Positions 41,670 to 45,852 of a stretch of 64,000 bases of DNA are shown here, in pieces. The translations under genes and the position numbers were made by a program. Below the pieces are notes generated by a model. That model did not search any database, was not told the origin of the DNA, and saw only the letters and a program-made list of their open reading frames with translations. Numbering within the stretch: position 1 is the stretch's first letter; the number at the start of each line of letters is the position of its first letter. Source of the DNA: Lachnospiraceae bacterium MD329 (GTDB taxonomy: Bacteria; Bacillota; Clostridia; UBA1381); assembly GCA_010206265.1 (NCBI GenBank), contig VIQV01000012.1:1-64000 (forward strand), in the 5' to 3' direction.

Positions 41670-42308
41670 TTATATAAGAAATCCAAATGGAGAAATCATT
41701 CTGAATACAACTGCAATTACAATCGACATCACTATAACTGCAGCAAGTCTTTTAGGCGACTTATACAGCACTGCTATACCTGCTATCCACACAAGCACCT
41801 CCAACGGTGACGACATATTAAAATACGTCAAACTAAAATAAAACGCCTGCAGGAACAATACTGCTATTATTACCGAGGAAATAACCACTGCAATTTTCCC
41901 TCTGCCTCTTGCATACCAGCAAATAAATGCAAGAACAGGCGATATTACCGTAAGACCTGCCCATAACATAAAATAAGCCCTATCAGGATAAAATCCTGCA
42001 AAAATTCTTGTATACGCATAATAGCCTGCTAACATTCCGACAAAAAACAGAAACACATTAACTGCCGCCCTTAACGGCGTTTTACTGTATACAGCTATAA
42101 CCACGGCAAGAAAATACCATATAGCAATTCTGCCGAAAAAGTTACTTAAATCAATTATTTCCATAAAATAGGGCAGTTCATTTGATGGTGTACAATCCAG
42201 AAATTTCGAAAACACTCCCATACCTATACCAAACAGCAATACAAAAAACGTATTAACAAACTGCCTTTTAAGTGAAATATGTACCGGCTTTCTGATATTA
42301 TGAAACAT
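41670..42308 (-). CDS. DUF6518-like multi-pass membrane protein
   Basis: A 212-residue protein with six or seven transmembrane helices. The upstream 20 codons lie inside the fumarase-beta-like gene and lack a ribosome site, so I start at the ATG at 42308, one base after its stop, with GGGAG 7 bases upstream. No catalytic motif is visible. Cotranscribed with the fumarase-beta-like and HAD genes. Function unknown. Confidence 0.65.
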   Translation of the reverse strand: MFHNIRKPVHISLKRQFVNTFFVLLFGIGMGVFSKFLDCTPSNELPYFMEIIDLSNFFGRIAIWYFLAVVIAVYSKTPLRAAVNVFLFFVGMLAGYYAYTRIFAGFYPDRAYFMLWAGLTVISPVLAFICWYARGRGKIAVVISSVIIAVLFLQAFYFSLTYFNMSSPLEVLVWIAGIAVLYKSPKRLAAVIVMSIVIAVVFRMISPFGFLI

Positions 42309-42309
42309 T

Positions 42310-42861
42310 CTATATCTCCCTATACTGAGCTTGTCCCATCTCATATAAGTCATTGCCCTTGCAGTCAATCAAAACAACCAATGGCAAATCCTCAACTTCA
42401 AGACGGCGTATCGCCTCTGTTCCCAGATCATCATACGCAATCACTTCGGCTTTCTTTATACTCTCTGCAATAAGAGCACCTGCGCCGCCTATCGCTCCGA
42501 AGTAAACAACGGTATTGCGTTTCATTGCCTCTACCACCTCAGGATTTCTCGCGCCTTTGCCTATCATTGCTCCAAGTCCGTTATCTAAAAGAATCGGTGT
42601 ATATGCGTCCATTCTGCCTGCGGTTGTAGGTCCGCAGGAACCAATTACTTCTCCCGGTTTTGCAGGACATGGACCTGCATAATAAATCACCTGATTATTG
42701 AGCTCAATCGGAAATGGTTCGCCGTTTTTGAAATTACGTGTCATTCTTTCGTGTGCCGCGTCACGCGCAGTATAAATCACACCTGACAATAAAACACTGT
42801 CCCCAGCCTTTAAATCTTTGATTATCTCCTTTGTTAAAGGAGCCGTTATTTTCTTCTCCAT
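42310..42861 (-). CDS. Fumarase/tartrate dehydratase beta-subunit-like protein (Fe-S hydratase family)
   Basis: A 183-residue protein matching the class I fumarase C-terminal (beta) domain: LTKEIIKDLKAGDSVLLSG, YTARDAAHERM, IYYAGPCPAKPGEVIGSCGPTTAGRMD, MIGKGARNP, FGAIGGAGALIAESI. In two-subunit fumarases the beta subunit carries the substrate site and the alpha subunit the 4Fe-4S cluster. No alpha subunit lies nearby; upstream is a HAD hydrolase and downstream a membrane protein. Either the partner is elsewhere or the protein has another role. It starts directly at the HAD stop (TAAATG). Confidence 0.85.
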   Translation of the reverse strand: MEKKITAPLTKEIIKDLKAGDSVLLSGVIYTARDAAHERMTRNFKNGEPFPIELNNQVIYYAGPCPAKPGEVIGSCGPTTAGRMDAYTPILLDNGLGAMIGKGARNPEVVEAMKRNTVVYFGAIGGAGALIAESIKKAEVIAYDDLGTEAIRRLEVEDLPLVVLIDCKGNDLYEMGQAQYREI

Positions 42862-43934: not shown

Positions 43935-44552
43935 TCATTCAATTACCCATTCAATCTTACCTGCAACTCCTGCCGTTCTTCCCTTTCGCTCCTCTGAAAC
44001 CATAAGTGTACGGTTCAGTGCAATTCCGAAAGCACGGTAAATCGCTTCCCATATATGATGTCCGTTATGACCTTTAATCAAATCAACGTGGAGCGTGCAC
44101 ATTGCTCCCTGAGCAAAGCCTTCAAGAAATGTTTCCAAGTTCTCGGAATTCATTCCTTCCACGCACTCTCCAACCCCGATACTGTTAAAATCAATATCGC
44201 AGTATGCACGTTCCTCAAAACTTACTGCACACTGTGCCTTTGCCTCATCAATTATTCCTACAGCGTCGCCATATCCCTGCACACCGTCTGTACTAAGTAT
44301 GTATTCACGCACTGCTTTACCTAAAGCTATTCCCAAGTCCTCTGCAATAACGTGGGTAAGAACGAACTTGTCCAGTTTTACATTGACCTCAATATTAAAA
44401 CCGCCTCGCCAAGCAATATGTTCAATCATATGGTTAAGAAACGTTATGCCGGTATTAATATATTCGCGATAATTCGATTTTAACGGAGAAAAATCAAGTA
44501 TTACTGTCATTTCCGATTCTGTTGTTTTCCGTATTACTTTTATTGGTTTCAT
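43935..44552 (-). CDS. HisB-like (imidazoleglycerol-phosphate dehydratase family) protein with altered metal site
   Basis: A 205-residue protein of the HisB fold: GITFLNHMIEHIAWRGGF, AEDLGIALGKAV, GIIDEAKAQCAVSFE, and GHNGHHIWEAIYRAFGIAL. The second HHxxE metal motif is intact. The first, DDHHTVED in true HisB, is LTHVIAED here, so one His is lost; the usual His before GGF is Arg. Histidine biosynthesis by this protein is therefore doubtful. Paired with the HisD-like gene (2 bp apart) downstream of dnaJ. No other his genes are in view. Function may be divergent. Confidence 0.75.
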   Translation of the reverse strand: MKPIKVIRKTTESEMTVILDFSPLKSNYREYINTGITFLNHMIEHIAWRGGFNIEVNVKLDKFVLTHVIAEDLGIALGKAVREYILSTDGVQGYGDAVGIIDEAKAQCAVSFEERAYCDIDFNSIGVGECVEGMNSENLETFLEGFAQGAMCTLHVDLIKGHNGHHIWEAIYRAFGIALNRTLMVSEERKGRTAGVAGKIEWVIE

Positions 44553-44553
44553 T

Positions 44554-45852
44554 TTACTTTCTCTCCTTAACGGCTAAACCGTGAGTATCAAAACCTTCAA
44601 CCTTTGAAATTCTGTACGCATATTCACGAACATTTTCAAAACCTTCCTTAGAGGCATAACCTACCGATGAACGTTTCAAAAAGTCCTGTACAGATACAGA
44701 TGAATAAGTCTTTGCAAATCCGCCTGTCGGCAGTATGGCATTCGGTCCGAGCACAAAATTGCATAGTGTTACAGGTGTGTAATCTCCAAGCAGAATTTCA
44801 CCTGCATTTTTAATTTTAGGAAGTGTGTCAAACGGTTTTTCCGTCATTACTTCCATATGTTCAGGTGCGTAATCGTTGACAAAGTCAATTGACTCATCAA
44901 GTGAATTTGTTAATATAACACCGCCATAGGTTGTCAGATTTGTTTCTATAAATTCTTTTCTTTTAGGCGAAATCTTTTCAAGCTGACGGTCTACAATAGG
45001 TATTACCTTATCAACAAGTTCACGCGAATGAGTAACAAGCAGCGCCGCGCTGTCGGGACCGTGCTCTGCCTCTATCATCCAGTCAAGCGCAACCTTTTCA
45101 GGGTCTGCCTTTTCATCAGCAAGTACGATTATTTCGCTCGGACCTGCCGGAAGTCCCGCGTCAATATGATTTGCAAGAACTCTCTTTGCTGCCGTCGCAT
45201 AACTGTTGCCGGGACCTATTATTTTATGACACTTCGGAATAGTTTCCGTGCCATATGCTACAGCCGCAACCGCCTGAATACCGCCAACCTTATAAATTTC
45301 TGTTATACCGATAATTTTAGCCGCCGCTAAAATTGCGTCATCAACCTCACCTTTCTCATTCGGCGGAGTTACAACGACAATTTTAGGCACCTTTGCCACA
45401 ACGGCAGGAATACCAAGCATACACATTACCGAAGGGAACGAACCTTTTCCGTGCGGAACATAAAGACAAACGTCAACAATAGGAGTAGTTTTTTCGCCTA
45501 CCATAAGACCGTCGTCCACCATTGTAAACCACATTTCCTCAGGGAGCTGTTTTTCGTGGAAATCATAGATATTCTTATACGCATATTCAATCGCCTCACG
45601 CGTTTCTGCGTCAAGGCGGTTGTATCCTGCCTCTATTTCCTCAGGCTTTACCTTTAACGTGTCTTTAGTAAGCTGTACGCGGTCAAATTTAGCTGTATAT
45701 TCAAGTACCGCCTCATCTCCGCGTGCTCTTATATCGTCAGATACCTCTTTTGCAAGTTTCATCTGCTCTGTAATATCCAGTTCGGCACGTTTCATTATAA
45801 AGTCGTATTGCTCCTTGGTCATTTTTGAAAGTTCGTAAATATTTGGTTGCAT
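44554..45852 (-). CDS. HisD-like (histidinol dehydrogenase family) protein with altered zinc ligands
   Basis: A 432-residue protein of normal HisD length. NAD-domain and barrel motifs fit: VDVCLYVPHGKGSFPSVMCM, KVGGIQAVAAVAYGTE, IIGPGNSYATAAKR, GPSEIIVLAD. Against E. coli HisD the catalytic pair (NDYAPEHM) is kept, but ligand Gln259 is Glu (IEAEHG for SQAEHG), ligand Asp360 is Asn (CNFVLGPN for GDYASGTN), and His367 is Ala. His262 and His419 remain. The family also contains dehydrogenases of other alcohols (HpsN). It starts 22 bp after dnaJ and is probably read from the dnaJ promoter. Confidence 0.78.
   Translation of the reverse strand: MQPNIYELSKMTKEQYDFIMKRAELDITEQMKLAKEVSDDIRARGDEAVLEYTAKFDRVQLTKDTLKVKPEEIEAGYNRLDAETREAIEYAYKNIYDFHEKQLPEEMWFTMVDDGLMVGEKTTPIVDVCLYVPHGKGSFPSVMCMLGIPAVVAKVPKIVVVTPPNEKGEVDDAILAAAKIIGITEIYKVGGIQAVAAVAYGTETIPKCHKIIGPGNSYATAAKRVLANHIDAGLPAGPSEIIVLADEKADPEKVALDWMIEAEHGPDSAALLVTHSRELVDKVIPIVDRQLEKISPKRKEFIETNLTTYGGVILTNSLDESIDFVNDYAPEHMEVMTEKPFDTLPKIKNAGEILLGDYTPVTLCNFVLGPNAILPTGGFAKTYSSVSVQDFLKRSSVGYASKEGFENVREYAYRISKVEGFDTHGLAVKERK

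Follow-up and report, generated by a model that had tools for sequence, protein, structure and literature searches.

A variant hisD-hisB pair that replaces the canonical enzymes in a clostridial family and may end histidine biosynthesis by a reordered route

Results

Organization of the locus

The window analyzed here, a 64,000-nucleotide stretch of contig VIQV01000012.1 from Lachnospiraceae bacterium MD329 (GCA_010206265.1), carries on its minus strand, in order, dnaK, dnaJ (47007-45874), a hisD-like gene (45852-44554), a hisB-like gene (44552-43935), the gene of a HAD-superfamily hydrolase (43938-42862), that of a fumarase beta-type subunit (42861-42310), and a membrane ORF (41670-42368) that overlaps the end of the fumarase gene and has a weak match to DUF6518. 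The hisD-like and hisB-like ORFs are both intact and encode proteins of 432 and 205 aa, respectively. The HisD-like protein was recognized by Pfam Histidinol_dh (PF00815; 5.9e-151) and by TIGR00069 hisD, scoring 471.4 bits where the cut-off is 243.8. The HisB-like protein matched Pfam IGPD (PF00475; 4.7e-41), its 140.7 bits exceeding the cut-off of 27, and it differs from IGPD proper in that it falls under the cut-off of every NCBIfam HisB model, its top score being 134.9 bits compared with 189. The nearest solved structures are those of ordinary HisD and IGPD. The HAD ORF (PF13242/PF00702), in which DxD, K, and GDxxxD motifs were read by eye, is a candidate phosphatase of the late histidine branch, and the fumarase subunit, of the FumA C-terminus/TtdB type, scored above the cut-off of NF005310.

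Comparison of 69 clostridial loci, some of them incomplete, disclosed hisD and hisB together in all 69; 54 of the loci also had a HAD homologue, 50 had the fumarase beta gene, and 34 had dnaJ. The conserved core is hisD-hisB, which the HAD and fumarase genes often accompany; dnaJ adjoins it in certain lineages. A first-pass annotation of this DNA had placed the pair in a transcript starting at dnaJ, followed by a HAD phosphatase and an orphan fumarase subunit. dnaJ does precede the pair here, yet this arrangement is restricted to some lineages, and a function linked to dnaJ was rejected, as roughly half of the loci have the pair beside other genes. The HAD and fumarase neighbors were confirmed, while the term orphan did not hold: the genome contains an alpha-type match at a separate site (contig C4:473-1186). 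It was obtained with one joined query, canonical HisC plus the alpha half of E. coli FumA, whose matches were separated by query coordinates. In view of this match, and of the 19 of 69 loci (some incomplete) where the beta gene was not found, the orphan fumarase was rejected as a pathway component; the beta gene is a frequent neighbor that probably lies outside the pathway.

Active site of the variant HisD

A comparison with the HisD enzymes of E. coli (1KAE) and Medicago (5VLB-5VLD) revealed the same family and length and the retention of Glu326, His327, the Zn ligands His262 and His419, and Glu414, against three substitutions, Gln259 to Glu (window residue 261), Asp360 to Asn (365), and His367 to Ala (372), all in E. 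coli numbering. These exchanges, and the conserved Glu326-His327, had already been noted from the window alone and are real: every one of the 79 HisD sequences of the variant type has Glu259, Asn360, and Ala367, with the catalytic Glu326-His327 and the imidazole-binding Glu414 invariant. In the plant enzyme, Zn is held by Gln299, His302, Asp401, and His460, which correspond to E. coli residues 259, 262, 360, and 419, while imidazole is bound by Glu455 (Glu414 in E. coli); His408 (His367) is no Zn ligand, and its backbone carbonyl alone contacts the substrate (PMC5585171). Instead of this canonical set of Gln, His, Asp, and His, all 79 variant sequences have Glu, His, Asn, and His. The side chains of Glu259 and Asn360 could still coordinate Zn, with the charge kept. 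Since Glu414 and the catalytic Glu326/His327 are preserved and the swapped Glu/Asn ligands would retain both charge and coordination, the substrate of variant HisD likely contains imidazole.

The HisD fold is shared by HpsN, a sulfopropanediol 3-dehydrogenase, which illustrates that the fold permits the four-electron oxidation of an amine-free alcohol; HpsN keeps the Gln and Asp Zn ligands, whereas the variant HisD keeps the imidazole-binding Glu414 (PMC11382572). An assignment of the window protein as an HpsN-type sulfonate dehydrogenase was rejected, as the motif G-R-Y-A/S-H (PMC11382572) is absent and HGKGSF stands at its position.

Active site of the variant HisB

In Medicago IGPD, Mn1 is coordinated by His141, Glu145, His213, and His238 of the neighboring subunit, Mn2 by His115, His142, His237, and Glu241, and the phosphate is bound by Arg167 and Arg189 (PMC10978614). 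Compared with this enzyme (HISN5) and E. coli HisB, the window protein is of the same fold family and keeps Arg189 and seven of the eight Mn ligands. The motif DDHHTVED is changed to LTHVIAED, which puts Val68 in the place of the Mn ligand His142 (Medicago numbering), and the histidine of the A-x-H motif is Arg49. Both changes agree with the first-pass annotation, which did not mention two others, Arg167 to Gly and Lys245 to Arg. The Arg that precedes (Y/F)G was taken as Arg167 because a spacing of 22 separates it from Arg189. Further differences from IGPD are a Trp before the second Glu ligand, giving an HHxWE motif, and a new C-terminus devoid of the STKG-type ending.

The same pattern was found in 77 variant HisB sequences. 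His142 is Val or Leu in 77 of 77 and Arg167 is lost from every one (75 Gly, 2 Ser), which leaves Arg189 of the phosphate-binding pair; Lys245 and the A-x-H histidine are both replaced by Arg, and position 240 is Trp. His115, His141, Glu145, His237, His238, Glu241, and Arg189 are invariant, and His213 is lost in 18 of the 77. The HisB proteins devoid of His213, with Phe, Gln, or Ser instead, belong to Monoglobus-type genomes (e.g., L132, 5989-6609).

Because the substitutions are fixed in 79/79 HisD and 77/77 HisB sequences, they are not due to chance. The statement that they hit metal-binding residues is correct for Gln259 and Asp360 of HisD (Zn) and for His142 of HisB (Mn). It does not extend to His367, judging by the plant enzyme, and it overstates the effect, given that Glu and Asn can still bind Zn and that HisB gives up one Mn ligand of eight, not the whole site. 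The conserved loss of Arg167 points to an unphosphorylated alcohol; of the alcohol/phosphate substrate first suggested for the pair, the alcohol would thus stand and the phosphate would not.

The pair in its genome and across the host family

The window genome (2.74 Mb, 91% complete) was searched with profiles for a second, canonical hisD or hisB, and none was found; the variant proteins are its sole PF00815 and PF00475 matches. The pair had been described as standing without other his genes, which is true of the window but not of the genome. The latter encodes HisG and two HisA/HisF-type proteins on contig C45, within the clusters hisZ-hisG-hisA and hisH-hisF (gene names by eye from translations), and HisI on contig C23, so that the upstream genes hisG, hisI, hisA, hisF, and hisH are all present. 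The first-pass annotation had regarded a lone hisD and hisB in a histidine prototroph as speaking against its own view, and the genomic half of that situation is what we observed, a sole pair in a genome with upstream his genes. HisC was not detected in this 91% complete genome, where the top match to the model was a generic aminotransferase with 131 bits against a cut-off of 276.55.

HisB is present in 62 of 70 host-family genomes, as the variant in 44 (63-76% identical to the window protein) and as the canonical form in 18 (about 30%). HisD splits in the same way, with mostly 84-95% versus about 40% identity to window HisD, and the variant lies in a clade separate from the canonical HisD of the family. 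Variant and canonical HisB occur together in none of the 62 genomes, and Petroclostridium sp. X23, whose genome is complete, has the variant pair only. As the two types never share a host-family genome, in a comparison made mostly on draft assemblies, and as strain X23 is variant-only, the variant pair is a replacement of the canonical enzymes and not a supplement to them. HisI is kept with either type (43 of 44 variant and 17 of 18 canonical genomes).

The neighboring late steps follow the same division. Among the host-family genomes tested, the cut-off of the HisC model was exceeded in five of five canonical genomes versus none of 14 with the variant, and the PHP histidinol phosphatase HisJ scored above its cut-off in 17 of 18 canonical versus 6 of 44 variant genomes. 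With the HisC query, 13 of 22 variant genomes gave no HisC-like match, among them Ructibacterium and three Monoglobus genomes; HisC-like proteins persist in Petroclostridium and some other variant genomes.

Relatives in other phyla and tandem HisB proteins

Five loci in MAGs of Desulfobacteraceae, Desulfobacterales, Thioploca, and Methylococcaceae (L141, L143, L146, L150, and L151) have a fused HAD-HisB-HisB gene and then hisD. Their HisD proteins are 52-54% identical to window HisD and carry Glu259, Asn360, and Ala367; this sulfur-bacterial HisD and the window group form one clade with 100/100 support. A HisC-like gene is located between the fused gene and hisD in L141, L143, L150, and L151, and by eye a HisZ/HisS-like gene follows hisD in L141 and L151. 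The fusion recalls the bifunctional HisB of E. coli, a HAD histidinol phosphatase joined to IGPD, in that HAD and dehydratase are linked, in one chain in the sulfur-bacterial relatives. It differs in that the window has separate genes and that the fused relatives hold two half-degenerate HisB domains sharing one ligand set.

Two-domain HisB proteins of the variant family were also found in L142 (a Parcubacterium), L147 (a Woesearchaeon), and L148 (a pseudomonadotan), beside hisG, hisH, hisF, and hisIE-type genes. HisD of these three has Arg at position 259 and keeps Asp360 and His367; the HisB and HisD changes are therefore not strictly coupled. In an unrooted tree, a 100/100 branch splits canonical HisB from the variant, tandem, and alpha forms. 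HisD and HisB have diverged together, each into its own clade (100/100), as the coordinated divergence proposed at the outset would have it.

The N-terminal domain of the tandem proteins retains His115, His237, His238, and Glu241 but no longer has the HHxxED region; the C-terminal domain retains His141, Glu145, Arg189, and usually His213 and lacks the other ligands. Position 142 is Val in all tandem proteins. Taken together, the two domains hold the seven-ligand set of the single-domain window HisB, which suggests that they complement each other in one composite metal site. The recurrence of the same ligand set in two architectures gives good support to a functional site and argues against decay. 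Tandem chains measure about 640-700 aa as HAD-HisB-HisB (L141, L143-L146, L149-L151) and about 420 aa as HisB-HisB (L142, L147, L148).

The his operons of L142 and L148 contain an aspartate/methionine-class aminotransferase in place of HisC. In L143, L147, and L151, the HisC-like proteins miss the HisC cut-off by only a little. Those of L141, L143, L150, and L151 have Phe at the position of E. coli Tyr110, which is occupied by Tyr in histidinol-phosphate aminotransferases and by Phe in aromatic ones (PMC4703992).

Discussion

A role in histidine biosynthesis and a possible reordered branch

The first-pass annotation assigned the pair to a pathway other than histidine biosynthesis. Our data do not support this: the pair is the sole hisD/hisB beside upstream his genes, it replaces the canonical pair across the family, and the same HisD site and HisB family recur in his clusters of other phyla. 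We consider it highly probable on these comparisons that the variant pair makes histidine, and the searches of the genome and the family, which returned the sole pair together with upstream his genes, led us to reject a pathway unrelated to histidine as the principal interpretation. A chemistry unlike the textbook steps is likely.

Textbook histidine biosynthesis is one fixed route that ends with HisB, HisC, a phosphatase, and HisD. The absence of a recognizable HisC and of HisJ from most variant genomes, the aspartate- and aromatic-type aminotransferases, and the lost phosphate Arg suggest that the late branch could be reordered with transamination last, a reading to which we give an even chance. 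HisZG, HisI, HisA, and HisHF would lead to imidazole-glycerol phosphate, which a phosphatase (the adjacent HAD or another) would convert to imidazole glycerol. Variant HisB, with its changed phosphate pocket and seven-ligand metal site, would dehydrate imidazole glycerol to imidazole acetol. Variant HisD, holding the imidazole on Zn, would then oxidize the terminal alcohol to the acid in two NAD+ steps (four electrons), yielding imidazole pyruvate. The substrates of aspartate-type and aromatic aminotransferases are 2-oxo acids, and a general 2-oxo-acid aminotransferase would turn imidazole pyruvate into L-histidine. With transamination shifted from the middle to the end, HisC would be dispensable. 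We infer every chemical step of this branch from the sequence comparisons. That clostridia share such a second, reordered branch with sulfur bacteria, Parcubacteria, Woesearchaeota, and other groups, with dephosphorylation first, dehydration and four-electron oxidation acting on imidazole intermediates that carry no phosphate, transamination of imidazole pyruvate last, and a variant HisB, either single-domain or tandem with one composite metal site, working with variant HisD, is a wider proposal that we put a little below an even chance.

Several observations count against the reordered branch. The second phosphate Arg, Arg189, is kept; HisC-like proteins occur in some variant genomes, and those of L143, L147, and L151 nearly reach the HisC cut-off; 15 of 69 loci have no adjacent HAD homologue; Candidatus Formimonas has its variant pair beside a sugar-type transporter in addition to canonical his genes; HisD carries Arg259 in L142, L147, and L148; and a search for histidine T-boxes in the window and in 22 loci, the majority with the variant pair, gave no hit at the gathering threshold.

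A conservative reading, which we regard as a real but lesser possibility, is that the textbook order is retained by diverged enzymes. HisB would act on imidazole-glycerol phosphate, a general aminotransferase would take the HisC step, the HAD protein would serve as histidinol phosphatase, and HisD would oxidize L-histidinol, the changes affecting metal or kinetics only. All arguments for a histidine role apply to it equally. Variant HisB retains Arg189 and usually seven of eight Mn ligands, HisD keeps Glu414, Glu326, His327, His262, and His419 with Glu259 and Asn360 still capable of Zn binding, and histidinol phosphatases of the HAD type have been described (PMC5516325). What it leaves unexplained is the loss of Arg167 from every variant HisB, the loss of HisC and HisJ alongside the variant, and the aspartate-type aminotransferase in two tandem-HisB his operons.

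It is unlikely that the pair works outside histidine biosynthesis, as first proposed, in a pathway whose substrate would be an imidazole- or sugar-type alcohol, with the last histidine steps performed by unrelated, unrecognized enzymes or by none. Such a use has a parallel in Candidatus Formimonas and L119, where the same HisD and HisB types occur with a HisB paralogue, a sugar-type ABC transporter, and dehydrogenases, Formimonas having canonical his genes in addition. However, 44 family genomes and Petroclostridium have no HisB/HisD besides this pair, and HisI is kept in 43 of the 44; canonical and variant forms are mutually exclusive in the family; and related forms reside in his clusters. 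Decay is far less probable still: the loss of one HisB Mn ligand and the missing HisC and HisJ could be taken for inactive remnants in a histidine auxotroph, but the variant HisD proteins are full-length and 84-95% identical across genera of the family, 77-79 sequences show no variation in the catalytic and most of the ligand residues, and the tandem forms keep the same ligand set over two domains.

Significance

If the reordered branch is correct, variant HisB and HisD replacing the canonical pair, with HisC and the usual phosphatase lost, would constitute a real alternative ending of histidine biosynthesis. Such a branch could explain some seemingly missing histidine genes, and predictions of auxotrophy would have to be revised for many gut bacteria not yet in culture. 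In the GapMind survey, HisN was the commonest low-confidence step (PMC7311316). The tandem HisB with complementary half-sites is, in addition, a clear example from nature of how an enzyme, once duplicated, can split one metal site over two domains. In the open-access literature, we found no description of the variant pair or of a biosynthetic imidazole-pyruvate route, which is weak evidence of novelty.

Additional observations

Candidatus Formimonas possesses the variant pair and a HisB paralogue beside a sugar-type transporter, plus canonical his genes. In this genome and in a Bacillota MAG (L114, 145-6615, and L119, 100-5949, respectively), the second HisB-like paralogue (~33% identical) adjoins variant hisD-hisB and the sugar-type ABC transporter; a further HisD with Lys at 259 lies upstream in Formimonas (L183). 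The arrangement in L114 and L119 looks like a catabolic use of the variant enzymes, and the Formimonas context thus suggests that at least one lineage may employ the variant family for something else.

In Petroclostridium-type loci (L103, 1470-3872; L106, 1856-4544), a polar amino-acid-type ABC transporter, identified by eye, is positioned directly upstream of variant hisD, and histidine is a possible substrate of it. Variant HisD is also unusually conserved in sequence, being ~95% identical to that of relatives whose DnaK and DnaJ are ~91% and ~75% identical, respectively, compared with about 75-85% for canonical HisD within related genera.
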